A stretch of DNA of 64,000 nucleotides. It comes from Clostridia bacterium. GTDB taxonomy: Bacteria > Bacillota > Clostridia > Monoglobales > Monoglobaceae. Both the position numbers and the translations under genes were made by a program. Of this stretch, positions 1-15,243 are shown piece after piece. The DNA lies in NCBI GenBank assembly GCA_017546145.1, contig JAFYXN010000005.1, positions 1-64,000 on the forward strand, read 5' to 3'. Positions within the stretch are counted from its first letter, which is position 1. Every line of letters begins with the position of its first letter. The notes beneath the pieces were generated by a model. The model searched no databases. It saw only the letters and a program-made list of their open reading frames with translations, and was not told the DNA's origin.

Positions 1-141
1 CCCATCAATGGTTTTACCAGTAAAGGAAAAGCCTTTGGAGGAAAACCCTTGGCTAAATAATACTAAAATAAATAAAAAAGAAAATAATAATATTTTATAT
101 AATAATACTAAATCTAATCCTATCCCATCTAAGAATAAAAT
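1..141 (+). other. Candidate iteron origin, partial second copy
   Basis: A CC dinucleotide recurs exactly every 15 bp (2-3, 17-18, 32-33, 47-48) inside aaRCCTT-type units. It is followed by an A/T-only-like stretch (about 54-115). This is the same layout as the origin at 6693-6899, and bases 37-141 align with 6795-6899 almost without change. More iterons probably lie left of the window. Confidence 0.6.
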
Positions 142-511
142 AAGTTTTAATATGTCTGAGATTGATAGATGCCGATGGGAGATAAAAGATAATATCGAAT
201 ATGATATTCTGGTTGAGAGGGAGCATATACATAGGGATATGCTTGATGAAATTGTGGAGCTTATGGTTGAAACCATTTGCTCAAAAAATGAAACCTTAAC
301 TATTGCAAGTAATACATATCCTCACGAGCTTGTAAAAAAGAAGTTCCTGAAAATTAACAGCGAGCATATTGAGTACGTCATTGAATGTGTGAGCAGCAAT
401 ACAACAAAAATCGGCAATATCAAGCAATATATGCTTGCGGCAGTTTTCAATGCACCTAACACTATCAGTAGTTATTATACAACCAGAGTGAATAGAGATA
501 TATATGGATAA
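2..511 (+). CDS. Replication initiator (DUF6017-like C-terminal part), cut by the window edge
   Basis: This is the 3' part of a gene whose start lies left of the window. The frame is open to base 2 and no ribosome site precedes the ATG at 8. The protein is a close relative of the initiator at 6370-7257: both have proline/lysine pentapeptide repeats, an Asn-rich linker and a C-terminal alpha-helical domain ending in YYTTRVN. The C-terminal domains are clearly alike (roughly two thirds identical by eye), yet the DNA of the linker (37-141) matches 6795-6899 with only about four differences. That points to selection on the DNA itself, probably an origin. It lies outside the tRNA-bounded element, so a second related element, or its relic, must adjoin on the left. 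Confidence 0.75.
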   Translation, partial: PSMVLPVKEKPLEENPWLNNTKINKKENNNILYNNTKSNPIPSKNKISFNMSEIDRCRWEIKDNIEYDILVEREHIHRDMLDEIVELMVETICSKNETLTIASNTYPHELVKKKFLKINSEHIEYVIECVSSNTTKIGNIKQYMLAAVFNAPNTISSYYTTRVNRDIYG

Positions 512-526
512 AAATGTGAATTAATC

Positions 527-555
527 TTGACATTTGTTTAATTTTGGTTTACAAT
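527..555 (+). promoter_or_regulatory. Sigma-A promoter of the AAA ATPase gene
   Basis: TTGACA (527-532), a 17-bp spacer and TACAAT (550-555) lie about 50 bp before the gene at 607, which has a strong GAGGGGG ribosome site at 593-599. Confidence 0.75.
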
Positions 556-606
556 GACCATAGTAAAGTGTAACTTTGGATTAGCCATAAACGAGGGGGC
601 TTTAAT

Positions 607-1872
607 ATGTATTCTATAAAAAGAAATATCGAAGAAATCGTAGAAAAACGAGCAAAAAATAATAAAGCAATTTTGCTTACAGGACCTCGACAAGTAGGAA
701 AATCCACGCTATTTAAGCATTTATTCAAGAATGTTAATCAGGTAACATTTGATGATGACTTGCTGTTAGCACAAGCTGAAGAGGATGTGGGCCTTTTTCT
801 TTTGAATAATCCTACACCGCTTGTAATTGATGAGGTTCAGAAATGCCCTTCAATATTTAATCGCTTGAAAATTGTGTTGGATAATACTGAAGATTATGGT
901 AATTTCTTTTTGACAGGTTTGCAAAAACTGCAGCTTATGGAAAATGTAAGTGAGTCTTTAGCAGGCAGAATATCTGTCGTTGAGCTTGAAGGATTATCTC
1001 TTCGTGAAATTAACAATGTTGATTTTAATAAGCATTTTGTTCCTACGGAGGATTATTTATTCGAAAGAGAAAAATGCATTAAACCATACCGCAGTGATAT
1101 ATGGGCAATTATTCATAGAGGTAGTTATCCGGAGCTTTATGCAAATCAAGATAAAGAGTGGACAGATTTTTATCAATCCTATGTGAAAACATATATAGAG
1201 CGTGATGTAAACAAGCTTATTAAAGCTAAAAATCATATGACCTTTGTAAAGTTCATGACAAGTGTCGCAGCACGAACAGGCCAGGTGGTTAATTATGCGA
1301 ATATAGCATCTGAGATTGGTGTATCTGAAGTTACAGTAAAGGAATGGGTATCAATATTAGAAAAGAGTGGAATCATCTATATTTTAAAACCATATACATC
1401 AAGTGTTTTAAATCGTGCTATAAAGACACCTAAACTTTATTTTCGTGATACAGGACTATGTTGCTATCTTACACGATGGTTGACCGTTGACACATTAAAA
1501 AATGGTGCTATGGCAGGTGCTATGTTTGAAACCTTTGTAATTAACGAAATTCTAAAATCTTATTCAAATGAAGGTATAGACTATGATTTTAATGTGTTTT
1601 ACTACAAGGGTAAGGATAAGAAAAAAATGAAGGAAGATGGCGAAGAAATAGAACTTGATGGTGAAATTGATTTCATTATTCAAGAAGATGGTATCCTTTA
1701 TCCTGTTGAAATTAAAATGACAGCTTCGCCAAAAGCTAATATGGCATCAGTTTTTGATGTTTTGGATGGTGTGCCGGATAAAAAACGTGGTATGGGAGCA
1801 ATTATTTGCTTATATGATAAAAAGATGTATTTGAGAGATAATCTTGTGGCATTACCAATAGAATATATTTAA
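607..1872 (+). CDS. AAA ATPase with DUF4143 C-terminal domain
   Basis: This 421-residue protein belongs to the widespread AAA_14/DUF4143 family of archaeal/bacterial ATPases. A Walker A motif, GPRQVGKST, is at residues 26-34 and a Walker B, LVIDEVQ, at about 72-78. A sensor-like FFLTG stretch follows near residue 100. The C-terminal third carries GEIDFII and VEIKM about 20 residues apart, the spaced Asp and Glu-x-Lys pattern of a PD-(D/E)XK nuclease-like fold that this family is known for. The cellular role of the family is not established. It is monocistronic with its own consensus promoter. It lies between a fragment of a replication initiator and the stranded tRNA half, outside the main element, and may belong to a neighbouring mobile element. 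Confidence 0.85.
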   Translation: MYSIKRNIEEIVEKRAKNNKAILLTGPRQVGKSTLFKHLFKNVNQVTFDDDLLLAQAEEDVGLFLLNNPTPLVIDEVQKCPSIFNRLKIVLDNTEDYGNFFLTGLQKLQLMENVSESLAGRISVVELEGLSLREINNVDFNKHFVPTEDYLFEREKCIKPYRSDIWAIIHRGSYPELYANQDKEWTDFYQSYVKTYIERDVNKLIKAKNHMTFVKFMTSVAARTGQVVNYANIASEIGVSEVTVKEWVSILEKSGIIYILKPYTSSVLNRAIKTPKLYFRDTGLCCYLTRWLTVDTLKNGAMAGAMFETFVINEILKSYSNEGIDYDFNVFYYKGKDKKKMKEDGEEIELDGEIDFIIQEDGILYPVEIKMTASPKANMASVFDVLDGVPDKKRGMGAIICLYDKKMYLRDNLVALPIEYI

Positions 1873-2048
1873 TAAAAAAGGATGCATATATTCATTTCTA
1901 CAACAACGAAAGAATACAACTAAAAACAAAACTGACACCACATGAAATGCGATGTCAGTATGTTGTTTGAATTTAATATTTAAACTGCCATAGTTCCTTT
2001 TTTGTACTGTCTGCACAAACTGGTGCAGTTCACAGCTTGCTCCTTTTT

Positions 2049-2108
2049 TGGAGGAGAGGATGGGATTCGAACCCACGGTACGCTATAAACGTACACAGCA
2101 TTTCCAAT
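2049..2108 (-). pseudogene. tRNA-Ser(GGA) 3' half, stranded by integration
   Basis: Read on the minus strand this is the anticodon loop onward: the 3' side of the anticodon stem (TGCTG), a long class II variable arm (GTACG/CGTAC), a T arm with GGTTCGAATCC, the acceptor strand CCTCTCC, and an encoded CCA. The 5' half is 58.4 kb away at 60481-60512. Joined, the acceptor stem pairs 7/7 and the anticodon stem 5/5, and the total is 92 nt, the same as the intact tRNA-Ser at 60239-60330. The base before CCA is U, whereas bacterial tRNA-Ser normally has G. This half may therefore be drifting, or may have been supplied by an earlier element. Confidence 0.85.
2098..2108. other. attL core (11 bp)
   Basis: The sequence gcatttccaat is identical to 60470-60480, and the flanks diverge at once on both sides. 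It covers the anticodon loop of the disrupted tRNA-Ser. In the reconstructed target the core is flanked by the inverted pair CAGCA/TGCTG, which is the anticodon stem, a classic site for tyrosine integrases. Confidence 0.82.
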
Positions 2109-2173
2109 TTTGTTGGATAATGTAACGATAACGAAAATAAATGAAAAATGTTTGAAAATAAATATAGATAAAA

Positions 2174-2217
2174 ACGGTTTAAACCTGCATAAAATACGGG
2201 TTTGAGCCGTTTTTTTG
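2174..2217 (+). terminator. Hairpin with T tract
   Basis: A 13-bp stem with G-T wobbles (2174-2186 with 2198-2210) is followed by seven T. It lies just inside the left end of the element and would insulate it from chromosomal readthrough. Confidence 0.65.
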
Positions 2218-2275
2218 TGTGCAAATATGCTTTGGGACAATATTTTATGAAAAATTTATAAAAGATCAAATTTCA

Positions 2276-2294
2276 GAAAGTTTTTGGGAACTTT
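2276..2294 (+). repeat. Left integrase arm-type repeat
   Basis: The sequence gaaagtttttgggaacttt occurs again without change at 60359-60377 near the other end. The unit TTTTTGGGAA is itself doubled here (2281-2290 and 2292-2301). Paired repeats flanking the core inside both ends are what arm-binding sites of a lambda-type integrase look like. The function is inferred. Confidence 0.7.
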
Positions 2295-2347
2295 TTGGGA
2301 ATAGATTGCCATCTACCATTGGAAAAGTATAAAAGGGGTGTAAAATT

Positions 2348-2848
2348 ATGTGTTTAGCACGAGCTTCGAATGAAAATTTTCTTACAAAAGCGGAATTTTG
2401 TGATTTTTGCGGAATTTCTAAGTCAACAGGATACCAATTGATGAAAAAACGAAAAGTTGAATTTATAAAATGCTGCGATGGTTTATTACATTATTACAAG
2501 ATTCCGATTGTAGAAGCATATCGCTATCTTCGGGAAAAAGAACTAAAAAACAAATTACCCGGTGAGTGCCAAAAGAGGATTAAGAAATATTATGAGGACA
2601 AGCTTGAACCATATGAAGATCTTGTTACCTCAAATGATATTATGGAGATTACAGGATATAGAAGGGAGCCGATAAGGAACTGGATTAACAGTGGAAAAAT
2701 ACTTGGCATTATTGTCAGAGGAAGGTTTTGCGTAGCTAAAGAAGATTTGCTGGATTTTTTGATAAGCCCGTACTACTTTAGCATTATTCGTAAATCAAAA
2801 ACACACATTGAAGATTTTGAGAGAATTGGAGGATTTAAAAATGGTTGA
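2348..2848 (+). CDS. Protein with two excisionase-like helix-turn-helix domains
   Basis: This 166-residue protein starts with a helix-turn-helix of the MerR/excisionase sort (residues about 10-45, FLTKAEFCDFCGIS then STGYQLM). A second one follows (about 92-140, TSNDIMEITGYRREPIRNWI) and ends in a typical RGRFCVAKEDLLDFL wing. Such doubled domains bind DNA in control regions of integrative elements. It is the first gene inside the left end and overlaps the next gene by 8 bp, so the two are probably translated together. It may be a regulator or an accessory directionality factor. The excisionase of the right-end integrase is more likely the gene at 58590. Confidence 0.7.
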   Translation: MCLARASNENFLTKAEFCDFCGISKSTGYQLMKKRKVEFIKCCDGLLHYYKIPIVEAYRYLREKELKNKLPGECQKRIKKYYEDKLEPYEDLVTSNDIMEITGYRREPIRNWINSGKILGIIVRGRFCVAKEDLLDFLISPYYFSIIRKSKTHIEDFERIGGFKNG

Positions 2849-3506
2849 ATATTTTGTAACTAAAGGAAAATTGGCAGTAAGAAATAGTGAGCCACTTGTT
2901 GTGGCAGACGGAGAAACGAAGGCACTTTCAAAGGACGAATTTATATTGTGGACAAGTCTGCACTGGAATGTGATGAATAAGGAATCACTCAAAGCAGAAT
3001 TTGACAGGAGGTTGAAAAAGTATCACTTGCATGGGGATGTGTCCTTTGAACAGACGCTCGCCAGATTAAAAAACAGAGGGCTTATCGTAAGCCAATCAGA
3101 CTATCTGGCAGTAGATGCTTTATACAATCTTATTAAGGATTTGTATGTAGTTCCCCTTGGAACAGTGAATGTATTTAAAAAAGCAATGATGTTTGGAGTT
3201 ATGCTTATCAATGGCGTTCCCTTTGATAAATGCAGAGAGGCAATGGATGGTTTCAATCTGAACTGTCTTGAAAAACAAATTGTCGGTTTTTCAAAACGTC
3301 TCAAGGTTTCAGGAGCAGAGCTTATCCGCATCAGCGATAAAGAATTATGGGCAATAAAGTTTGAAGAAGACATTGTTCCTCTTGCTTATGAGGAGCACGA
3401 GGATATGGACTCTATTGGAAACTTCACAAGGTTTTCAAAGGATAAAAACAAAGTCCTTGAGGCGATTGTAAATCTGTATTTAAAGAAACAAATTGTATTT
3501 GAATAA
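2841..3506 (+). CDS. Element-borne protein of unknown function
   Basis: The start at 2841 is preferred over an earlier in-frame ATG at 2808 because GGAGG lies 9 bp before it and it overlaps the upstream stop. The 221-residue product has no signal peptide or membrane segment. Its first half reads like a winged-helix fold (FILWTSLHWNVMNKESL and TLARLKNRGLI), followed by a mainly helical part with an acidic tail. I do not recognise a family. Overlap with the two-HTH gene suggests a joint regulatory job in maintenance of the element. Confidence 0.55.
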   Translation: MVEYFVTKGKLAVRNSEPLVVADGETKALSKDEFILWTSLHWNVMNKESLKAEFDRRLKKYHLHGDVSFEQTLARLKNRGLIVSQSDYLAVDALYNLIKDLYVVPLGTVNVFKKAMMFGVMLINGVPFDKCREAMDGFNLNCLEKQIVGFSKRLKVSGAELIRISDKELWAIKFEEDIVPLAYEEHEDMDSIGNFTRFSKDKNKVLEAIVNLYLKKQIVFE

Positions 3507-3525
3507 TAGAAAGGTTTGGTGACTT

Positions 3526-4365
3526 ATGAAAAGGGTAGTAAGTATTTTATTAATGGTTGTAATAATGGCGATGTGCGTGAGCGTATCCGCTCAAAGTGAT
3601 GTAAAAGTAACGTTGGATGGGAATGAAATAAATTTCCCTGATGTAAAACCGTTTATTGACCAGCTGGATAGAGTTTTAGTACCAATCAGATTTGTATCAG
3701 AGGCACTTGGCGCTTTTGTTGATTGGGAAAACGAAACAAGAACCGCACTTATTAAACAAGACAACGATGAAATCCGTTATACAGTTTATCAGCCGATGGC
3801 ATACTTAAACGGCGAAATGATGGTTATGGATACATACGGAATTTTAAAGGACTGCAGAACGATGGTTCCTATAAGATTTATTTCTGAACTTTTAGGTTGT
3901 ACGGTTGTCTGGGATGAGAAAACTTCAACAGTTGTTATCACATCACCAAAGGATGCAGTTGCTTTTCCAAAGCCTGAGATTTCTGTAAATTACCCCGAGA
4001 GTGTTTCAGACAAAAGACTTCTCTGGATTGATATAGACAATTACAGAGACTTTCAGCGTAGCGGTGATTATGAATTCAAAGTTGAGTTTATAAATCCCGT
4101 ACAGTTTAACACATATGAGCAGGACGAAGGTGCAATCAATGGATGGCAGAAATATTCAAGATGCAATTTTGTTTCGGCATCTAACAGTTATAAAACCATC
4201 TACTCAATCACAAGAGCATTTTACACAAGCAGAGATGATATGAAAACTTATAAGCCAAAAGATGGTGACGAAATCACCTTCAGACTGACAGTCAGAAACA
4301 AAGTGACAAAAGAAACAAAAGAGTATATTTTTACGGAAGCCCTAAAGCTTCCGTATGAAGTATAA
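3526..4365 (+). CDS. Secreted copper-amine-oxidase-N-like domain protein
   Basis: This 279-residue protein has an N-terminal signal peptide (MKRVVSILLMVVIMAMCVSV, cut near SVSAQ). Two halves of a copper amine oxidase N-terminal-like domain follow, with the typical phrases VLVPIRFVSEALGA and TMVPIRFISELLGC, each followed by VxWxxxT and a beta strand. Despite the name, this domain in Clostridia is a wall-associated beta module, not an oxidase. The C-terminal 120 residues look like a separate beta-rich domain. The same domain type recurs in the two giant beta-helix proteins at 33065 and 36620. Here it sits within element maintenance genes 19 bp after the previous gene. Confidence 0.75.
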   Translation: MKRVVSILLMVVIMAMCVSVSAQSDVKVTLDGNEINFPDVKPFIDQLDRVLVPIRFVSEALGAFVDWENETRTALIKQDNDEIRYTVYQPMAYLNGEMMVMDTYGILKDCRTMVPIRFISELLGCTVVWDEKTSTVVITSPKDAVAFPKPEISVNYPESVSDKRLLWIDIDNYRDFQRSGDYEFKVEFINPVQFNTYEQDEGAINGWQKYSRCNFVSASNSYKTIYSITRAFYTSRDDMKTYKPKDGDEITFRLTVRNKVTKETKEYIFTEALKLPYEV

Positions 4366-4392
4366 AAAAATTATTTTAAGGAGGTAGACTAT

Positions 4393-5064
4393 ATGATCTA
4401 CAAAAAAATTGACACAAGCAAAGTAAAACAAGAATTGGATTTTGACCAGATACAAAGTGATTTGGCAAAGTTCAAAAGCCACACACCAATGCCGCAGGAT
4501 GATGTAATAACACTTATGAATTATATCGACAAGTTTGAGCGATTGATAGCCGATGAAGATTATAATGAGCTTGAATACAGTGCAGAGTGTTTTATGTGTA
4601 ATCTTCGTGACATCCTGGCAAATGTAAAACAAGAGCCAAGAAAAAGAGCACTTACTAGATGTGCAGAGCGAATGGGCATAACAGTACAGAAAACGAATGG
4701 CGTTCTGGAAGTAACCTTGCCTATGATTTTGCCGAGCAAATCAAAAACGAAATCGGAATATTTATTCGATCCGATATTTTATGCAATGGAAGAATTTTCG
4801 AAAACCGAACCTCTTTTTATAAAAGAAAAGGCAATGATGTGCATCGAATTTATCTACGATAAAAATAACAAAAATATTCCGCGTGGCGACCATGACAATA
4901 AGGAAGTTAAGCAGGTAATTGATGCAATTGCCTCCTTTGTTGTCCGGGATGACAGTGATGATTATTTAAGTCTTTGCCAGATTTCGTCTGAAGGTGATTA
5001 CAATCACACAAAGGTTTATGTTATGCCCGAAAAAAGCTTTGCAGAATTCTTTTTAAACCATTAA
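4393..5064 (+). CDS. Unknown cytoplasmic protein
   Basis: AAGGAGG precedes the ATG. The 223-residue product starts with about 80 helical residues rich in charged positions, then a central alpha/beta part with TLPMILPSKS and a histidine/aspartate cluster (PRGDHDNKEVKQV). No membrane segment, signal or known motif is visible. It ends the short left-end operon (2348-5064) and is followed by a strong terminator at 5136. I do not recognise the family. Confidence 0.5.
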   Translation: MIYKKIDTSKVKQELDFDQIQSDLAKFKSHTPMPQDDVITLMNYIDKFERLIADEDYNELEYSAECFMCNLRDILANVKQEPRKRALTRCAERMGITVQKTNGVLEVTLPMILPSKSKTKSEYLFDPIFYAMEEFSKTEPLFIKEKAMMCIEFIYDKNNKNIPRGDHDNKEVKQVIDAIASFVVRDDSDDYLSLCQISSEGDYNHTKVYVMPEKSFAEFFLNH

Positions 5065-5135
5065 AATAGCCCGAAAATGTCGCAAAAACCGTATCACAAA
5101 ACGGCAATTTTAAGCGAAAATTTTGTGACATGGCG

Positions 5136-5164
5136 AAAAGCCCGTAAAATCGGGCTTTTCGAGG
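5136..5164 (+). terminator. Rho-independent terminator
   Basis: A perfect 9-bp stem, aaaagcccg/cgggctttt, encloses a 6-base loop (5136-5159). Further T-rich sequence follows after GAGGC. Confidence 0.75.
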
Positions 5165-5236
5165 CTTTTTCTCTGGCAAAAAAAGACCATAAATAAGAAG
5201 ATTGGATAAAAATAAAGCAAAGGAGTAAAAACAAAT

Positions 5237-6373
5237 ATGATTAAAAAGCAGACAATAGAATATAAACTGGTAAGCATAATAGGATTAGCAGGAGAGATAC
5301 AGACAGAAGAAATATATAAATTAAATTATGGAAAAGAGTATATAAGAAAAACAATAAGTAAGTTAATAACAAAGAAATGTATTAAAGTATATAAGTTTGA
5401 TAATAAGAAATATTTAAGATTAACAGTAGCTTGTAAAAAGTACTTGTTGGAAAATTATCCTGAAAGATTTGAGTCTATATTTGTAGGTGCAGCCAGAGCT
5501 AATAAAATACGAAACGAGGAACACAGACGAACAAGGTATCACAGACTTGGAGAACTTTTAATTCTTTTAGACCTTGCAGACATAAAAATATTCGCTGATG
5601 AAAAAACTCTTTGGAAAAAGACTCATGGATTTCAGGAAGCAGACGGAACAGACTTCACAGACTATTCGTCGGATAAAAAGACTGCAGAGTTCTATACAGC
5701 AACGGAATTAAAAAGCTTTGACTTTTTTGGAAATGCAAGAACATCAAGAGCAATGGGAATTATATACTCTCATCCGGATGTTTTTGTAATCTACTACTTT
5801 GTCAATGAATTTCCAAAACTGGAATACAAAACTGAAAGTAGTTTTTTCTACAGAGCAGGTTCCGGCATTCATTCTAATTTGAGGCAGGATTATCATGCTC
5901 AAGCAAAAATAATTTTTATTGGAGACAGTATGAAAATATTCAACGGTATTTTACGTGATAAAAGAAAGTCCACGGAGAAAATTCTTAAAATGAGCTATTA
6001 TGATGACCCTGTTATGTTCCTTGATAAATCTCATCTTGGTTCAAGGCAGCTTATGTATTTTATCAGCGAAAGAGCCAGGAATGAAATGAAAAAGTTTTCT
6101 TTTGATTATTTTGGTGCTAACACTTCAGGATGGCATATAGGGCTCATTCCAAACACGGATACCGTGGTCTATGATTGCACCATATGCAATCCAATAGATG
6201 TTTATTATGTTAAATATACCGGCATGGGAAAATCTGACACAGCAAAATCAGTAAATGTAATGTGCTTTGATTTTCAATATGAGTGCATAAGAAAATATGT
6301 TGGCGATTCTGATAATGTTAGATATTACACATACGATTCAGAAAAGGTGCTGGAAACGGAGGACACCCGATGA
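5237..6373 (+). CDS. Replication-relaxation family protein
   Basis: This 378-residue protein has an N-terminal winged helix (residues about 8-75, with KTISKLITKKCIKVYKFDNKKYL) and a body resembling Replic_Relax (PF13814) proteins of integrative and conjugative elements. Members are thought to help replication or relaxation of the element at its origin; biochemical proof is limited. It overlaps the downstream initiator gene by the ATGA quartet (6370-6373), which implies coupled translation and joint function. Codon use is A-rich in the first 80 codons. There is no relaxase HUH or three-histidine motif, so it is not a relaxase itself. Confidence 0.65.
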   Translation: MIKKQTIEYKLVSIIGLAGEIQTEEIYKLNYGKEYIRKTISKLITKKCIKVYKFDNKKYLRLTVACKKYLLENYPERFESIFVGAARANKIRNEEHRRTRYHRLGELLILLDLADIKIFADEKTLWKKTHGFQEADGTDFTDYSSDKKTAEFYTATELKSFDFFGNARTSRAMGIIYSHPDVFVIYYFVNEFPKLEYKTESSFFYRAGSGIHSNLRQDYHAQAKIIFIGDSMKIFNGILRDKRKSTEKILKMSYYDDPVMFLDKSHLGSRQLMYFISERARNEMKKFSFDYFGANTSGWHIGLIPNTDTVVYDCTICNPIDVYYVKYTGMGKSDTAKSVNVMCFDFQYECIRKYVGDSDNVRYYTYDSEKVLETEDTR

Positions 6374-7257
6374 CAAAATATACAATAAAAAAAGAGAAGG
6401 ATTTTGTACAGATACCCAATAGTATTCTGACAAGTCCTGATATAAGCCTTAAAGCAAAAGGCATACTTGCTTTGATGCTTTCCCTTCCTGATAACTGGAA
6501 ATTCAGTATAGAAGGAATTGCAAGTAAATGCAAAGAGAGCAGAGAATGTATTTCAAACGCAATAAAAGAGCTTGAATCAGCAGGTTATGTAAAAAGAAGT
6601 ATGAAGCACGGAGATGACGGCAAGATTACCGGGATGGAATATGAAATCTTTGAAGAACCATATACTGTAACCGAAGCTGAAGAACATAATGAAGAAAAGC
6701 CTTGCGAGGACAAGCCTTGCACGGCTAATCCTTCTGCGGAAAAACCTTGTACGGAAGAACCGTCAGAAGAAAAACCTTTGACGGATAAACCTTCGGAGGA
6801 AAACCCTTGGGTAAATAATACTAAAACCAATAAAAAAGAAAATAATAATATTTTATATAATAATACTCAATCTAATCCTATCCCATCTAAGAATAAAATG
6901 TCTGAACTGGATATATACAGAAAAGCTGTAAAGCAAAATATTGAATACGACATATTGGTGGAAAAAGAACCGCTACATAAGGACATGATTGATGAGATAG
7001 TGGAGCTGATGGCGGAAACACTAAACTCCAAAAGAGAAGAAATAACCATTGCAAGTGATACGCATAGTATGGATGATGTCAGAGAAAGATTTACGGATAT
7101 TACTAGCGAACACATTGAGTACATCATAGAGTGTGTAAGCAAGAACACAACCAAAGTCAGCAACATTAAGCAATATATGCTTGCTGCTATCTTTAATGCG
7201 CCAAACACCATGGGCAGCTACTATACCACCAGGGTGAATTATGATTGGCACAGATAG
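6370..7257 (+). CDS. Replication initiator with internal iteron origin
   Basis: The N-terminal 75 residues form a helix-turn-helix like the HTH_36 domain of RepA/phage replisome organisers (IPNSILTSPDISLKAKGILA, then FSIEGIASKCKESRECISNAI). Residues about 107-147 are eight pentapeptide repeats of the form xxKPx. An Asn-rich linker follows, and then a C-terminal helical domain (about 180-295) of the DUF6017 sort. The repeats are encoded by 15-bp iterons and the linker by an AT-rich stretch, so the gene appears to contain its own origin, as lambda O does. The product would bind the iterons and load host helicase. It is paralogous to the partial gene at the left window edge. It is coupled to the replication-relaxation gene by a 4-bp overlap. 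Confidence 0.8.
   Translation: MTKYTIKKEKDFVQIPNSILTSPDISLKAKGILALMLSLPDNWKFSIEGIASKCKESRECISNAIKELESAGYVKRSMKHGDDGKITGMEYEIFEEPYTVTEAEEHNEEKPCEDKPCTANPSAEKPCTEEPSEEKPLTDKPSEENPWVNNTKTNKKENNNILYNNTQSNPIPSKNKMSELDIYRKAVKQNIEYDILVEKEPLHKDMIDEIVELMAETLNSKREEITIASDTHSMDDVRERFTDITSEHIEYIIECVSKNTTKVSNIKQYMLAAIFNAPNTMGSYYTTRVNYDWHR
6693..6899 (+). other. Candidate replication origin: eight 15-bp iterons plus AT-rich region
   Basis: A unit close to GAAAAACCTTGNACG repeats with exact 15-bp phase. Its CC pair falls at 6700, 6715, 6730, 6745, 6760, 6775, 6790 and 6805. Directly after the last unit comes about 80 bp of nearly pure A/T (6811-6890), a natural unwinding element. The array lies inside the initiator reading frame. 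The related copy at 1-141 keeps the same period and nearly the same bases. A coding explanation alone (pentapeptide repeats) would not require the AT-rich part to be conserved at the DNA level. Confidence 0.72.
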
Positions 7258-7280
7258 CGTCAAAATATTTAACTTAAAAA

Positions 7281-7309
7281 TTGACATTTAACTTTAATTG
7301 TGTTATAAT
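7281..7309 (+). promoter_or_regulatory. Consensus promoter of the AbiE-like pair
   Basis: TTGACA (7281-7286), 17 bp and TATAAT (7304-7309) make a perfect sigma-A promoter. It lies 31 bp before the gene at 7341. Confidence 0.85.
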
Positions 7310-7340
7310 CAAATCGCAGAGTTAAAAGGTTGGTGATTTT

Positions 7341-8291
7341 ATGGAATACATTACAGAGATTTTAGGCGTAAAAATTAGTCGAAAAAACTGGGAAGACAGT
7401 AATAAACTTCCATATTTTTTAATAGATGAGTATAGCTTTGAGTTGGTTCGGCTTGATAATTATAATTGTGTTTTTATTAAACCGAAAAAAGATGTAGCAG
7501 TTATAAATACAGTAAAAAAACACTTAATAGCAATACAAAAAACTTGTAAGTATCCAGTTGTTTTTGAGCTTGATAAAATAACTAGGCAGAAAAGAAAATC
7601 TTTTATTGAAAATAAAATACCTTTTGTAGTGACAGATAAACAACTCTATCTTCCGTTTATGGGAGTATCATTACAGGAGAGTTTTGATAGCGAACCATCG
7701 ACAATGTTAAGTTTAAAAAAAGTGCTTCCGTCTGCGCAGATGATTTTGTTTGCATTTATATATAAAAAGTGTAAGCCTATGTATCTGAGTGAAACCGCAA
7801 AGAAATTTAACCTGACATCTATGTCTGTGTTAAGAGCAGCAAGACAACTTGCAGAATTTGGACTTGTCAACATTGAGACCGAAGGACGAATGAAATTGAT
7901 ATGCAGTAATTCAGCTCCGATGGAATTATTTGAAAAAGCAAAACCTTATTTTATTAATCCTATACGAAAAACAGTGTATGTTGACAAGGACCAAATTGAT
8001 AGTTCAATGTTTAGGTCCGGATTATCAGCACTTTCTGTGTATGGAATGTTGAATCCGCCACAACCGGAAGTGTACGGCAGTATAGGACAAATAAAGAACG
8101 CGAGCTATTCCGAAACGCTGATAGATATAGAAACGCAATGTATTCTTGAGTTTTGGAAATATGACACCACCAAGTTATGTGACAGTAATATTGCTGATGT
8201 TTTATCTCTTGCGCTTTGTTTTGTCGATAACGCAGATGACCGTGTGCAAATAGAAATCGAAAAATTATTAAATAGCAAAGAGTGGGATTGA
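7341..8291 (+). CDS. AbiEi-like antitoxin/regulator with winged helix
   Basis: This 316-residue protein sits 3 bp before a nucleotidyltransferase gene, in the order antitoxin then toxin seen in AbiE-type (type IV) systems. A winged helix-turn-helix is at about residues 128-185 (KPMYLSETAKKFNLTSMSVL, then AARQLAEFGLVNIETEGRMK). The first 110 residues resemble a small alpha/beta domain with an FELDKITRQKR stretch. Antitoxins of this group repress their own promoter and counteract the toxin without a tight complex. The consensus promoter upstream fits an autorepressed operon. Family assignment rests mainly on the partner and the HTH, since the sequence is not close to the textbook lactococcal AbiEi. 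Confidence 0.65.
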   Translation: MEYITEILGVKISRKNWEDSNKLPYFLIDEYSFELVRLDNYNCVFIKPKKDVAVINTVKKHLIAIQKTCKYPVVFELDKITRQKRKSFIENKIPFVVTDKQLYLPFMGVSLQESFDSEPSTMLSLKKVLPSAQMILFAFIYKKCKPMYLSETAKKFNLTSMSVLRAARQLAEFGLVNIETEGRMKLICSNSAPMELFEKAKPYFINPIRKTVYVDKDQIDSSMFRSGLSALSVYGMLNPPQPEVYGSIGQIKNASYSETLIDIETQCILEFWKYDTTKLCDSNIADVLSLALCFVDNADDRVQIEIEKLLNSKEWD

Positions 8292-8294
8292 TAT

Positions 8295-9056
8295 ATGGTT
8301 ACAGGAATTAATAGTTTCAGAGAACGATTTAAGGATATGGAAGATCAATATACAATAATAGGAGGAACAGCTTGTGATTTGCTGATGAGTGAAATCGGAG
8401 AAAATTTTAGGGCAACAAAAGACCTGGATATTGTTCTTATAATAGAAAGCATTACTGCTGAGTTTGGAAGAATATTTTGGGAATATATAGTTGATGCAGG
8501 ATATGAACATAAAAACAAAAGTACAGGCGAACCGCAATTTTATAGATTTTCTCATCCGGTATCATCTGAATATCCGTTTATGATTGAAATTTTTTCAAGA
8601 AAACCGGATAATTTGATTTTGCCGGAGGATGCAGTACTTACGCCACTACCGCTTGATGAAGAGTTGTCAAGCTTATCGGCTATTTTGCTCGATGATAATT
8701 ATTATGATTTCATCAAAAGTGGTATTATACAGCTTGATGGAATTGCTATTCTGGATGCTCTCCACCTTATTCCTCTAAAAGCAAAAGCGTGGGCAGATCT
8801 TTCAGAGAAAAAGGTATCTGATTCAAATTCAGTTGACAGTAAAGATATAAAAAAGCATAAAAACGATATTTACAGACTTACATCACTTTTGACACCTGAA
8901 ATGCAAATTACAGTTTCACCGGAAATATATGATGATATACAGGTGTTTATAAATGCAGTCGGTGATGATAATGTGAACTTTAAGCAGCTTGGAATAAGAG
9001 GTATTACACAATCATCAAGTGTAGTTGACAGGTTGCGTGCAGCATACATAAAATAA
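8295..9056 (+). CDS. AbiEii-like nucleotidyltransferase toxin
   Basis: The 253-residue protein shows the nucleotidyltransferase signature: GGTACDLL (residues 23-30), then RATKDLDIVL (39-48) with the paired acidic residues DxD, and a third acidic strand, FMIEIFSRKP, near residue 98. Helical residues such as LIPLKAKAWADL follow near 150. AbiEii/MenT-type toxins add nucleotides to tRNA ends or other targets and cause growth arrest during phage infection. The gene starts 3 bp after the antitoxin stop. The full DxD and third acid appear intact, so the enzyme is probably active. A plain nucleotidyltransferase without toxin function is the main alternative. Confidence 0.7.
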   Translation: MVTGINSFRERFKDMEDQYTIIGGTACDLLMSEIGENFRATKDLDIVLIIESITAEFGRIFWEYIVDAGYEHKNKSTGEPQFYRFSHPVSSEYPFMIEIFSRKPDNLILPEDAVLTPLPLDEELSSLSAILLDDNYYDFIKSGIIQLDGIAILDALHLIPLKAKAWADLSEKKVSDSNSVDSKDIKKHKNDIYRLTSLLTPEMQITVSPEIYDDIQVFINAVGDDNVNFKQLGIRGITQSSSVVDRLRAAYIK

Positions 9057-10016: not shown

Positions 10017-10940
10017 TTGCAAATAAAATTATCGCTATTAAAAAATGTTTTTGATGCGGTTAAAGCTGTGTCGGGTCTGTTTGCGCTTACATCTGGCGAC
10101 AGGATTGATATTGAATTAGATTATGCGTCGGATGATTTAAAACCAGAATGCTTAGCTATTGTGGCTGCGGCAATATCGTATGCAAGAAGTAGTGGAGTGG
10201 ATGTTACAATTAAAAAGTCAAATGTTTCTAAAGATCCTAAAAAGAAAAGCTCGAAAACTAAAAGTAAAGCTGGTTTATTATTTGCAGAAAAACTGGGATT
10301 TACAGGATTACTTGATTATAAAGCAACGAAGAGAGATATAGGAATTATCGAATTAAAATCCAATAAAGAGAATAGTGATATTATAAACAAGACTATGCAA
10401 GAAATGTGGAAGAATTTTTCTATAAAGGAATCAGTATATAAATGCATAAATTATTGTTTATGGGAACAAATTGATAATATAGAAAACCATGCAAATTGTG
10501 AAGGCCCCAAATATCTAATGGTGTGGGAAAATAGAGAGCAAAAAACATTATCCGTCTGTGTTATAGATACTGGGATAGGCATACATAAGGCTTTAACAAC
10601 AGATAGTGAGAGTACATATAAATATTTTACTCCCAAAGAGGCGGTTGAAAAATGCATTAATGAAAAAGTTACAAATGGTAAAGGAAAAGGAAATGGATTA
10701 TATCATAATGGCAGGTTTATTAATGCCAATGATGGAACGATGATTATATACTCTGGAAGTTATTATACAGAAAAAGACAAGAACGGGATTACTACTGGTA
10801 GAGTACCATATTGGCAAGGCACAATTGTCTATCAAAAAATAAACACACAGGTGACTGTGGATTTCGATGAGATTTTTACAAATACAGAAGTTCCTACATC
10901 GGTATTAGAATGCCATGAAATGGTTAATAATTTGTGGTAA
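10017..10940 (+). CDS. GHKL-type ATPase (histidine-kinase-like)
   Basis: The 307-residue protein starts at TTG after GAGGGGGG. Residues about 140-235 carry the GHKL ATP-binding motifs: an N box (LWEQIDNIENHA), a G1 box (VIDTGIGI) and a G2 box (GKGKGNGLYHNG). There is no dimerisation/phosphorylation histidine domain, receiver or membrane segment, so it is not a classical sensor kinase. The N-terminal 90 residues contain a Lys/Ser-rich stretch (DPKKKSSKTKSKAG). It is followed 13 bp later by a STAS-like gene. GHKL plus STAS pairs recall anti-sigma/anti-anti-sigma logic, and similar pairs with DUF4325 occur in mobile elements. A defence role is a guess from location. Confidence 0.75.
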   Translation: MQIKLSLLKNVFDAVKAVSGLFALTSGDRIDIELDYASDDLKPECLAIVAAAISYARSSGVDVTIKKSNVSKDPKKKSSKTKSKAGLLFAEKLGFTGLLDYKATKRDIGIIELKSNKENSDIINKTMQEMWKNFSIKESVYKCINYCLWEQIDNIENHANCEGPKYLMVWENREQKTLSVCVIDTGIGIHKALTTDSESTYKYFTPKEAVEKCINEKVTNGKGKGNGLYHNGRFINANDGTMIIYSGSYYTEKDKNGITTGRVPYWQGTIVYQKINTQVTVDFDEIFTNTEVPTSVLECHEMVNNLW

Positions 10941-10953
10941 AGGAGTGACTAAA

Positions 10954-11229
10954 ATGAAAGTTGAATTTAAAAAATATGGAACTAGTTTAGGAACAAGAGA
11001 AACTGGTAAAGAAATACGAAAGACTATACTTGAAAACTTAAAAAACGAAGAGGATATTATTTTTGACTTTGATGGTGTTTCTATCTTATCAAATTCGTTT
11101 GCAGATGAAGTGTTTGGAAAATTGATCGGATGTATTAGTTTTGAAAAATTTAAAGAAAAAACAAAATTTCAAAATATAAATGGTGCAGTAAAAACGGTTA
11201 TATTAAAAGCTATAAACGATTCGATATAA
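10954..11229 (+). CDS. STAS-like protein (DUF4325)
   Basis: The start at 10954 follows AAAGGAG by 9 bp and is preferred over an in-frame ATG at 10915 that overlaps the upstream gene. The 91-residue product has the core of a STAS-like DUF4325 domain: DIIFDFDGVSILSNSFADEV (residues about 31-50), then FGKLIG and a final helix. In STAS proteins the ISNS-type loop after the DFDGV strand is where a phosphorylatable serine sits, and here serines flank it. It would be the partner of the GHKL ATPase 13 bp upstream. A strong terminator at 11316 closes the pair. Confidence 0.75.
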   Translation: MKVEFKKYGTSLGTRETGKEIRKTILENLKNEEDIIFDFDGVSILSNSFADEVFGKLIGCISFEKFKEKTKFQNINGAVKTVILKAINDSI

Positions 11230-11386: not shown

Positions 11387-11415
11387 TTGACAAAATGCAT
11401 TTGTTGTTGTATAAT
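11387..11415 (+). promoter_or_regulatory. Consensus promoter of the methylase/TIR operon
   Basis: TTGACA (11387-11392), 17 bp and TATAAT (11410-11415) lie 20 bp before the ATG at 11435. The longer reading frame that begins at 11387 would start inside this promoter, so that start is rejected. Confidence 0.85.
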
Positions 11416-11434
11416 TGCAATCAGAGGTGGTAGT

Positions 11435-13198
11435 ATGTTTGTTAAATTGCAGAGATTTTTAGAAATCAGCAATAGAAGTTTGACGAGGAATCAAGCTCAG
11501 CAGTTGTTTTTATATATGGCATTCGTGTTAAGATTTTGCCGTAAATTTAGTATTAATTTAAAAGAAGAGGATACCTTACCCGGATTGTTGTCGAGATTGT
11601 TTCAAAAAATATCAAGGTATGAAATCAAGGAATCGGCTTTTGCTTTCGATTCATATATGCCGTGGAATATTTTGCAGCAGGACTGGAATTTGCATGACAG
11701 TATAAATGAATTGTTTTATGAATTATATAAAACAGAATTCGCCTCAGCAGAATGGCTGATTAATGCTGTGGATGAAATACTGGGCAATGAGGTTTTAACA
11801 CCAAAACTTGTACGCACATTGATAGCAAAGTTAGCAGCACAAAAACGGGTCAGTCAAATTACAGATTTATGTAGCGGCACTTTTTTATTAGGCCTCGAAG
11901 TTTGGAATGAAATGGGTAAAAATGATGATGTTAATTGTTATGGAGAAGAAATAAATCCATATTTTTGCGCAATATCAAGGCTTTTACTTTTTTTGTGTGA
12001 TGTAGGAAACTTTGCTGTTAAAGAACAAGATGTGATTAAGGACAATCCGGATAAAATAGTTTCCCAAGCATCCAAGGTTATCGTAGCGGATCTCCCTCTT
12101 GTCGGAAACAGAACTATTCCTGTGCCGGATAAGGATAGCTTTTTATCTGAAAAAAAGCGTACATTGTATGCAGATTGGATGATAATATATAAAATTTTAC
12201 AACAGTTAACTTCGGGAGATCGTGCATTTTTGCTGGTGACAAAAGGTGCTCTTGTTAGGGAAAATGAATATTTTTTACGAAAGCATTTTATTGATGCTGA
12301 TTGTGTTGATGCTGTTATGACGCTTCCAAACAGTATTTACCCGAATTATAATTTGCCAATGAATTTGCTAATTTTTGAAAAAGGGCGTTCAGAAGAAAGA
12401 AAAGGGACAGTACTTTTTATAGATTTGAATCAGGAGTCAACGCCTACATTGCATGATAATACAATTGAACAAATTTTCCGGATGTTTTACGAATATAAAG
12501 CAGAAGAACCATTTGCGAGAATTGTTGATTATGATGAAATAGTGAGCAAGGACTATATATTAAATCCTCAAATATATCTGGCTGGCGAGGGCGTTCTGGA
12601 TGGGCAATTAGCCATAAGGGATATAGCCTGTGTGACACGAGGAATACAGGATCTGTCGGGCAACAGAGCGGTTAATTCAAAAGAAAGATATTTACTTAAT
12701 GTTCGTGATATTCAAGAGGGCGAGATAATATATGAAACGGCTGAAGTTATCGAAGGCGGTAATCCATTATGGGAAGAAAAATTCCTTATAAAGGAAGACG
12801 ATATTATTATTACTGCAAAAGGTGCAACGATAAAATTAGCTATTGTCCCGCCAAATCCCAGTTCGGCTTATATAAGTGGAAACCTAATGATTCTTAGAGT
12901 GAACACAGACAGGTACTCGCCTTATGTTTTATATGAGTATCTGTTGTCCGAAAAAGGTCAACGGGCACTTAACTTAATACAAACCGGAACGACAATTCGT
13001 GTTCTGGGAACAAAAAAAATGGAACAGCTTAAGATACCTGAATATGAATGTGAAACTGTAAGGATGATAGGTGATGGTTTAAAGCTTGCAACTCTTCAAT
13101 ATAGACAAGCTTTAGAAGATGCAAATTTGAAATTCAAATTAAAGAAGGAAGCGTTGTTATCTTGTTTTAACAAAAGAAAGGGGAATGAAAATGTATAA
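11435..13198 (+). CDS. Degenerate N6-adenine methylase fused to an HsdS-like recognition domain
   Basis: This 587-residue protein starts after AGAGGTGG. Residues about 110-370 follow the type I HsdM fold. The motif I equivalent is TDLCSGTFLLG (near 143), where DPxxGSGxL is expected. YGEEINPYFCAISRLLL follows. The catalytic motif IV position reads ADLPLVGN (near 217) instead of NPPF/Y. So both the cofactor loop and the catalytic tetrapeptide are altered, and methyl transfer is doubtful. Residues about 388-587 resemble one target-recognition domain of HsdS, with IRDIACVTRG and a terminal IQTGTTIRVLGTKKMEQLKI. It overlaps the TIR gene by 8 bp. No HsdR is nearby. It may act as a DNA-sensing subunit for the TIR protein (inference). 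Confidence 0.72.
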   Translation: MFVKLQRFLEISNRSLTRNQAQQLFLYMAFVLRFCRKFSINLKEEDTLPGLLSRLFQKISRYEIKESAFAFDSYMPWNILQQDWNLHDSINELFYELYKTEFASAEWLINAVDEILGNEVLTPKLVRTLIAKLAAQKRVSQITDLCSGTFLLGLEVWNEMGKNDDVNCYGEEINPYFCAISRLLLFLCDVGNFAVKEQDVIKDNPDKIVSQASKVIVADLPLVGNRTIPVPDKDSFLSEKKRTLYADWMIIYKILQQLTSGDRAFLLVTKGALVRENEYFLRKHFIDADCVDAVMTLPNSIYPNYNLPMNLLIFEKGRSEERKGTVLFIDLNQESTPTLHDNTIEQIFRMFYEYKAEEPFARIVDYDEIVSKDYILNPQIYLAGEGVLDGQLAIRDIACVTRGIQDLSGNRAVNSKERYLLNVRDIQEGEIIYETAEVIEGGNPLWEEKFLIKEDDIIITAKGATIKLAIVPPNPSSAYISGNLMILRVNTDRYSPYVLYEYLLSEKGQRALNLIQTGTTIRVLGTKKMEQLKIPEYECETVRMIGDGLKLATLQYRQALEDANLKFKLKKEALLSCFNKRKGNENV

Positions 13199-13946
13199 AG
13201 TTTTTATAAGTCATAGTGCTAAAGATAATAGTGAGGTGAGGGATTTTATTAATCTCCTTGTTCTGGGAATGAACATACAAAAAGAAGATATATTCTCCAT
13301 ATCATTGCATGAAAATTTACCTACAGGAAGAATGTTTTCTGAAAAGATTAAAGATGCAATGATTTCTTCTGAAAAAATCATTTGCTTCATTACACAAAAC
13401 TACCTGCAAAGCAGGTTTTGTATGGCTGAACTTGGTGCAGCGTGGATTCAGGACCAAAAAATTATACCGGTATTATTTTCTCCGATTACTTATGATGATT
13501 TAAACAATACCCCCATAATTGGAACCCAAATGTGTTATGGTGATAAAAAAGAAGGGCTAATGGCTATCCACGATGAGTTTTTTAATAACGGCATTACAAA
13601 AACAATTAACTCGAATGAGTTTAGTCGTTATTTGGATTTATATATTGATTCATTAAAAAAAACAACATTGATTGAAAAGGACGATGATGGTTTCTATACA
13701 GTTAAAATTGCAGATGTACGAAATGTTCCGCATGACTTTAAATGTTATAAAATTCAGGGGTTATTAAATTTGGATGAAAAACTTTTAAGCGGGGAAACCC
13801 ATTGGATTTTTTATAGAACAGGAATGTATGAAGAATTAAAAATTGGTGATATAATTCGATTTAAAGTCAGCCAAACGGAGATAAGGCAGTTCAGAGATTT
13901 AACAAATGCAAGGAATATATATCCGGATACACTGGAAGTGTTGTGA
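13191..13946 (+). CDS. TIR-domain protein
   Basis: The start at 13191 is chosen because AAGGGG lies 7 bp upstream. Residues 1-130 are a TIR domain: MYKVFISHSAKDNSEV at the N terminus, LPTGRMFSEKI, IICFITQNYL, and the catalytic-loop motif SRFCMAELGAAW with a Glu near residue 81, matching the NAD-cleaving glutamate of bacterial TIR enzymes. Residues about 160-251 are a beta-rich domain of unknown type. TIR NADases in defence systems deplete NAD or make cyclic-ADP-ribose signals once a partner detects infection. The overlapping methylase-like gene is the obvious partner. It is not arranged like Thoeris, because no SLOG/Macro or Sir2 gene is near. Confidence 0.82.
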   Translation: MYKVFISHSAKDNSEVRDFINLLVLGMNIQKEDIFSISLHENLPTGRMFSEKIKDAMISSEKIICFITQNYLQSRFCMAELGAAWIQDQKIIPVLFSPITYDDLNNTPIIGTQMCYGDKKEGLMAIHDEFFNNGITKTINSNEFSRYLDLYIDSLKKTTLIEKDDDGFYTVKIADVRNVPHDFKCYKIQGLLNLDEKLLSGETHWIFYRTGMYEELKIGDIIRFKVSQTEIRQFRDLTNARNIYPDTLEVL

Positions 13947-14082: not shown

Positions 14083-15243
14083 ATGGAAATAAAAAACAGG
14101 CTAAGAAATGATTTGTGGAAAGCCGTATATGCACATTACGAAGGAAAAGATTATACAGAATCTGTAAGAGATGCAATGTTATATGTATGTGAATTTCTAA
14201 GAGAAAAAAGCGGTATTATTGACAAAGATGGAACAAAATTGGTGGAGAATACTCTTTTTGGAAATTCTCCTGTAATTTTAGTCAATAAAAATGAAACCAC
14301 AACAGAAAAAGATGTTCAGCAAGGGATAGGCTTTTTGTTAAAAGGCTTAATGCAATCAATAAGAAACCCTTTAAGTCACGAAAAAACAACATATACACAA
14401 AACGATTCGGAGGCTATTATATTATTTGTTAATTATGTTTTAAATCAAATGGACAGTTCTGGCGGGAAGTCAAAGATTGATAGCTTAAAGGACTTAATTT
14501 ATGATGCAAATTTTACTTCATCAAAAGAATATGCTGAATTGCTAATAAAATAAATTCCAGTAAAGAAAAGATATGATCTTTTATTGGAATTGTACAAAGA
14601 TAGGGAAGCACTAACTCAAAATAAATTAAAAAATTTCTTAAATGAATTAATGAATTCATTATCAAGTGCAGAGTTTTCTGATTTTATTCAGGTAGTAACT
14701 TCAAGTTTGATGATTTGTCAAAACAATAGGGACTTGCGTATGTACTTTCATTATTTTATGGAGAGTACATATAGTCACATAGATAGACTTGCACAATTAC
14801 GAATTGAAAATTTCATATACGAATCTATAAAAAATGGCGAAATTGAGTATGTAGATAATCCTTTTGCACTAGAAGAAGAGGAAGAATGTAATTCTCAAGG
14901 TTCTTTAGGAACATGGATAAATGATAAATTATATCTGTTGTCAAACAGAGAACAAATATTAGATAAGTTATTTATGAAGTTAGGTGGTGGCAATAGTTCG
15001 GAGCAGAAGTATGTATTAACATTTTTTTGTGATTGTGTGTTTAATTCTTCTGTTAAATTGACTGATTACAGAAAAAACATAGTTAAAGATGGTTTAAAAA
15101 ATGGGGATAAGCAAATTTCAGATAATCTATTTTGTATTATGAATTTTGAATGTGAAAGCATATGGTATGCGACTTTTAAAGAGGAATATGAGTTGTGCTG
15201 TGAAAAAAACAAAAAAGAAGTTGATGAAGAATTTCCATTTTGA
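14083..15243 (+). pseudogene. TIGR02391-family gene interrupted by an in-frame stop
   Basis: The start ATG at 14083 follows AAAGGAGGAG. The first 157 residues match the TIGR02391 (Ymh-like) family: AVYAHYEGKDYTESVRDAM and the conserved core LMQSIRNPLSHEK. A TAA at 14551-14553 stops it, but the same frame continues without a gap as IPVKKRYDLLLELYKDREAL and stays open to 15243 with protein-like composition. The downstream part would otherwise have only a TTG start and no ribosome site. The simplest reading is one gene of about 386 codons with a nonsense mutation. Readthrough or two separate products is possible. Members often sit in defence regions; the function is not established. Confidence 0.7.

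Follow-up and report, generated by a model that had tools for sequence, protein, structure and literature searches.

PrrC is inactive in its EcoprrI complex and is released once the T4 Stp peptide disables the enzyme (PMC3710099, PMC3874165), and PrrC genes are linked to type I systems (PMC3710099). A resembling arrangement occurs in the window, by which we mean the whole 64,000-nucleotide stretch of DNA analysed from a Clostridia bacterium. Here, a toxin-type gene is found together with a gene for a type I-like methylase fused to one half of a specificity subunit (M~S). By analogy, the operon may be of a kind already known, in which a toxin linked to a type I methylase is kept under guard, as with PrrC. 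It differs from EcoprrI-PrrC in having an apparently dead, single-chain M~S, a TIR protein rather than a HEPN-ABC nuclease, and no HsdR; a HEPN-ABC PrrC within an hsdMSR locus is not present.

PARIS brings about abortive infection triggered by Ocr (PMC9122126). The likeness to the operon is one of proposed logic, with a phage anti-restriction protein as the trigger, but AriA/AriB-type genes are absent here and the proposed sensor is methylase-like. In SPARTA, guide-target binding switches on a TIR domain via a dead nucleic-acid enzyme. The operon likewise combines an apparently dead nucleic-acid enzyme with a TIR effector, and the SPARTA TIR is the second-ranking structural match of this effector (Z ~15.8). 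Unlike SPARTA, it has a type I methylase fold in place of an Argonaute and no guide, and no Argonaute or APAZ match was found in M~S, the TIR protein or their neighbours.

The gamma-class and 'type 1 1/2' methyltransferases M.XmnI, M.DrdI and M.AhdI have an M~S architecture with one methyltransferase core per recognition domain and are of the homodimer type (PMC3874165). The family described here differs in its decayed catalytic motifs and in its linkage to toxins. Esub1 (8VSQ; 8VSR with Prx, a phage protein) has a similar half-HsdS-like domain but was crystallised as ~200 aa without a methyltransferase core. SpbK has the closest TIR domain by sequence and structure, whereas the TIR protein of the window carries another C-terminal domain and belongs to a two-gene operon. 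Thoeris also uses a TIR protein within a two-gene defence. A preliminary description of the locus had set it apart from Thoeris, and this distinction holds, with no ThsA among the eight genes tested around it and a score of the TIR protein against ThsB_TIR (PF08937) of 18.5 bits, below the cut-off of 21.2. Nor does the locus correspond to MADS: MAD5 reached 36.5 bits against a cut-off of 400, and mad2 appeared as a generic methyltransferase match only.

Operon layout

The genes for M~S and the TIR protein overlap by 8 nt, or by 14 nt if the TIR protein begins at 13185 (Table 1), in agreement with the overlapping reading frames noted earlier. The TIR ATG lies within the 3' end of the M~S gene (ATGTATAA), and the two genes form a typical translationally coupled pair. 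The M~S gene had been given a TTG start at 11387 and 603 aa. This TTG instead belongs to the -35 box of a sigma-A type promoter that is the sole site with a complete consensus between positions 9000 and 15700. The start codon is thus placed at the downstream ATG, preceded by AGAGGTGG, which shortens the protein to 587 aa. The gene overlap and the single promoter argue that M~S and the TIR protein are made together.

No restriction subunit accompanies the pair, as the preliminary description had stated. A domain profile search of the neighbouring genes revealed no HsdR motor/nuclease subunit, and searches of the host's own genome (metagenome-assembled, 1.66 Mb, 33 contigs, completeness 89.5%) revealed neither an HSDR_N match, i.e., no hsdR, nor a second type I M-like gene. 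Because the genome is incomplete, the absence of hsdR is not final.

Table 1. Features of the M~S-TIR operon (positions in the window)
Feature	Position	Strand	Evidence
Promoter, sigma-A type consensus TTGACA-17 nt-TATAAT	11387..11415	+	12/12 matches
Ribosome-binding site AGAGGTG(G), 5' of ATG 11435	11424..11430	+	Sequence
Pseudo-methylase M~S fusion gene, 587 aa	11435..13198	+	ORF, domain matches and fold model
Degenerate motif I, DLCSGTF (canonical DPxCGSG)	11864..11884	+	Alignment
Degenerate motif IV, DLPL (canonical NPPF/Y)	12089..12100	+	Alignment
Half-HsdS recognition domain	12605..13195	+	PADLOC match; closest solved relative Esub1 (8VSQ/8VSR)
TIR gene, 251 aa from ATG 13191, ribosome-binding site AAGGGG	13191..13946	+	ORF, profile and structure matches
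Predicted catalytic Glu (E80) of the TIR domain	13428..13430	+	Alignments
TIR C-terminal domain, ~95 residues (ESHW / GDIIxFxV / ARNI type)	13653..13943	+	Shared with other TIR genes

The methylase-like protein

M~S comprises a helical N-terminus, an N6-methyltransferase core (residues ~118-385; PF02384 N6_Mtase, E 6.8e-33) and an HsdS-type recognition domain with a terminal coiled coil (~391-587; PADLOC Specificity_I, E 1.4e-11; PF01420, E 0.016, below the cut-off), which bears out the initial reading of a methylase/HsdS fusion that retains its recognition domain. A single S-type domain is fused to M, not the two-domain HsdS of type I systems. The loss of both catalytic motifs reported earlier stands for motif IV, where NPPY is replaced by a sequence that retains the second proline alone, the asparagine and the aromatic residue being gone. 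Motif I was said to be lost as well, but it keeps its aspartate and first glycine and lacks the second glycine of GxG. The intact motif I and NPPF/Y of a type I HsdM are both missing.

The AlphaFold2 model of M~S (mean pLDDT 72.7, with the N-terminal 110 residues poor) matches the type I M subunits 3LKD (Z 31.0) and EcoR124I (7BST, Z 25.7). It also matches 7EEW, an intact methyltransferase solved with the DNA mimic Ocr, with 436 residues aligned at a large overall rmsd. According to their entry titles, the matched structures include type I methyltransferases solved with Ocr or ArdA (7EEW, 7BST, 7BTO). The S part aligns with Esub1 (8VSQ, Z 20.1, rmsd 3.2 over 194 residues), and the entry title of 8VSR describes a co-crystal of Esub1 with a protein named Prx, presumably the streptococcal phage protein paratox. 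Given the matches of the model to type I M subunits, 7EEW and Esub1, the fold of M~S is predicted to be intact while its catalytic motifs are not.

Over its full length, M~S matches the profile of a pseudo-M~S family that combines a methyltransferase core with one HsdS domain. An 88-residue fragment of Esub1 searched against plasmids matched only M~S genes of this family. Judging by its motifs, M~S would no longer methylate DNA. That the fold and the recognition domain were kept as the catalytic motifs decayed points to a role in binding.

The TIR protein

The second gene encodes a TIR domain (PF13676 TIR_2, E 1e-11) that combines the TIR fold with a catalytic-type glutamate in an SxxCxxELG region, consistent with the intact catalytic region first described. 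The glutamate, E80, lies within SRFCMAELGAAW and is invariant in the TIR alignment. SpbK is the top structural match (Z 17.2, rmsd 2.8 over 153 residues) and is also the best match by sequence. The protein is a probable NAD-destroying effector with a predicted NADase activity.

The fold model of the TIR protein is unreliable in the C-terminal domain (pLDDT <50), for which Pfam gives a weak match to PulA_N1 (0.011). This domain recurs in a solo TIR gene (L058) and in a TIR gene of Enterococcus faecalis. The latter is located on a contig filed as phage (L153, 5986-8188), where the gene 16 nt 3' of the TIR gene appears, by eye and from its sequence, to encode a dGTPase-like HD protein; the two could constitute an unrelated two-gene defence unit. 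The TIR protein is thus also modular. Plasmid TIR matches from Enterococcus and Rhizobium were set aside, since the similarity is mainly in the TIR domain and the loci are unrelated.

Motif loss in the M~S family

Relatives of M~S were collected from plasmids, genomes, 85k species genomes (by pattern scan) and viral contigs, and those matching both the M and S parts were kept as full-length relatives. Some follow-on searches among relatives' relatives covered few genomes, since the groups concerned are small. NPP[FYW] is absent at motif IV in 28 of the 32 full-length relatives, whereas only two of 55 HsdM relatives, picked by profile from the same searches, lack NPP[FY] and 53 keep it (Fisher p 3e-16, kinship ignored). 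L124, one of the 55 HsdM, also aligns to the S columns and is counted too among the four intact M~S. The recurrence of a degenerate motif across the family indicates decay beyond chance. The family is not uniformly dead, as NPPF is kept in L108, L124, L144 and L146, and the statement that every M~S relative is without NPPF was dropped. Some degenerate relatives retain [ND]xPF (NFPF, NIPF), a motif with which they might have retained activity.

A phylogeny of the M domain places 22 degenerate M~S together (SH-aLRT 87), next to the intact L108 and away from the canonical HsdM encoded at these loci; four late members (L144-L147) and two further members were left out of this tree. A clade of dead M~S that is separate from the HsdM of the same loci argues for a function kept without catalysis. 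The M~S of the window sits on a long branch, and its nearest rows are L097, a Tissierella prophage protein and G573. L097 is its closest relative, with 27-32% identity, and a single-protein viral scan with the window M~S gave no match. Proteins from Gillisia and Methanosphaera represent separate motif losses. The Methanosphaera case (L123, 3931-5959) adjoins an intact type I system and consists of a half-HsdS gene and an HsdM with CPPF for NPPF; here M and S are encoded separately, and the motif was lost independently.

Neighbours of M~S genes

About half of the M~S relatives directly adjoin canonical type I genes. M~S is found beside hsdM-hsdS(-hsdR) in Salimicrobium, Lactococcus, Lactobacillus amylovorus, Paenibacillus, Ectobacillus and several Clostridia/Bacillota genomes, often together with a small conserved gene, one of a few kinds, directly upstream. 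At one of the type I-linked loci (G459), a SEFIR/TIR_2 gene (E 5e-19 and 1e-17) lies 435 nt upstream of M~S.

Reading the loci one by one also revealed toxin genes next to M~S where no type I system is in view. A PBECR3 RNase (E 2.8e-21) is encoded 40 nt downstream of M~S in G089, and an MqsR homolog 52-53 nt upstream in G241 and Clostridium beijerinckii, with Panacea or MqsA-Panacea as the antitoxin. The C. beijerinckii MqsR is below Pfam reach, yet it is 52% identical to that of G241. Small genes of other kinds also adjoin orphan M~S relatives, and some relatives (G233, G724, G389 and more) have neighbours of no known type.

Two small gene families recurrently adjoin M~S, one of ~151-171 aa (L093 10213-10713, L095 5216-5731, L012 8749-9204) and a second of 157-163 aa (L103 5995-6468, L104 6191-6682, L013 7248-7724). 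In G628 (L094 2709-4184), a truncated N6-methylase, a single HsdS domain and an HSDR_N nuclease domain are fused in one protein. Its gene lies beside M~S, a full type I system and a gene for a 294-aa protein with an Rx4H motif.

The co-occurrence of M~S with TIR genes in other genomes, which the preliminary description had put forward as a check, was not borne out. No second pair was found in ~1,530 genome searches (repeats counted), in the pattern scan of 85k species genomes, or in the viral and plasmid collections. TIR relatives elsewhere do not lie beside M~S, and M~S relatives elsewhere do not lie beside a TIR gene of the window type. A viral scan with the TIR pair alignment gave no match, and all three loci from a further viral TIR scan are solo, with no M~S nearby. 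TIR was thus dropped as a conserved partner of M~S. As the exact pair was seen only in the window, the evidence for coupling comes from a single operon in a single metagenome-assembled genome. What is seen repeatedly is the dead M~S, accompanied by interchangeable toxins or lying beside type I systems.

Proposed function and alternatives

We tentatively favour a plausible reading of the pair as a two-gene operon for abortive-infection-type defence, in which a pseudo-methylase sensor and regulator restrains the TIR protein until a phage factor engages it. M~S would be a pseudo-enzyme with a type I methyltransferase fold and one target-recognition domain, probably a homodimer, and would be translated together with the TIR protein that it regulates. 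In an undisturbed cell, M~S would keep the TIR protein inactive within an M~S-TIR complex that we infer. By analogy with PrrC and PARIS, a phage product could then engage or displace M~S. The likeliest trigger may be an anti-restriction factor, e.g., a DNA mimic, or another small phage protein with affinity for the methylase/HsdS groove. The TIR protein would be released or assembled, NAD+ would be hydrolysed, and the cell would stop. That M~S recurs beside swappable toxins and beside genuine type I systems speaks for such a guard.

The preliminary description proposed a DNA-sensing dead methylase that triggers NAD loss. In such a model, M~S would bind a specific phage DNA sequence, and binding itself would activate the TIR NADase in a SPARTA-like manner. 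The recognition domain is indeed retained and is conserved in the M~S family, and SPARTA, whose TIR the window TIR matches, sets a precedent. However, a half-HsdS reads ~3-4 bp per subunit, so that its site would recur often in the host chromosome, and searches of the host's own genome (89.5% complete) gave no cognate type I methylase that could mask self sites. With the host's own sites not marked as self, plain DNA sensing is unlikely. The family context is more compatible with a guard whose cue is a phage protein or the failure of a restriction system.

M~S could also be the antitoxin or autorepressor in a selfish module resembling a toxin-antitoxin system, which primarily maintains the region, with any phage defence secondary. 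The complete MqsR/MqsA-Panacea locus among the toxin-linked relatives would suit such a module, as would the location of the operon in an accessory stretch of low GC that carries replication-type genes. MqsR loci already have their own antitoxin, though, and with roughly half of the relatives tied to type I restriction-modification loci and not to toxins, we regard this function as decidedly unlikely. That same association would be expected of a type I accessory subunit involved in specificity change, restriction alleviation or HsdM assembly, of which the window copy would be an orphan with an incidental TIR neighbour. Such a role is very unlikely in view of the 8-nt translational overlap with the TIR gene, the operon's own promoter, and the lack of hsdR or another type I hsdM in searches of its own genome. 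There is next to no chance that M~S has kept methylase activity with an unusual motif: the [ND]xPF of some relatives is similar to the NxP[FY] carried by KsgA/Erm RNA methylases, and M~S of the window retains the motif I aspartate, but DLPL has neither the asparagine nor the aromatic residue, GTF replaces GxG, and the control HsdM relatives keep NPP[FY] almost throughout.

The guard function favoured for the operon may extend to the family. We speculate that dead single-chain type I methyltransferases are decoys that mimic a restriction enzyme: once a phage anti-restriction protein binds them, they would set free a swappable toxin (TIR NADase, PBECR RNase or MqsR), in some cases as a safeguard next to a real type I system. 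That they make up a previously undescribed defence class is possible, if somewhat unlikely; a literature search of partial coverage found no description of dead M~S/toxin pairs. If true, dead copies of restriction enzymes would be tripwires, with one tripwire wired to several toxins, and the guard/decoy principle of PrrC and PARIS would extend to a pseudo-enzyme family in Clostridia, Bacilli and other lineages. It would explain the extra methylase-like gene, annotated 'N-6 DNA methylase', in many type I loci and would provide testable targets for phage anti-restriction proteins. For annotation, we caution that many M~S-family genes probably do not methylate DNA.

Genes flanking the operon

Upstream, a GHKL-ATPase-like gene overlaps a STAS-like DUF4325 gene (10017-11229). 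The two resemble the N-terminal part of DrmA from DISARM (PADLOC E 7e-9 and 2e-5) and are kept outside the operon because of the promoter at 11387. A Ymh/TIGR02391 gene (14083-14553; PF09509, E 4e-24) is likewise excluded because of the 136-nt gap that separates it from the 3' end of the TIR gene. It is of HEPN type with an RNPLSH (Rx4H) motif, has its own strong ribosome-binding site, and could encode a second effector, an RNase. Directly 3' of it, a 219-aa protein (14584-15243) has no Pfam match above the cut-off and none in PADLOC/NCBIfam. The accessory stretch at positions 1-9056 encodes two DUF6017 proteins, HTH_17 and DUF6100, and has the appearance of a mobile-element remnant beside a sugar-metabolism region.
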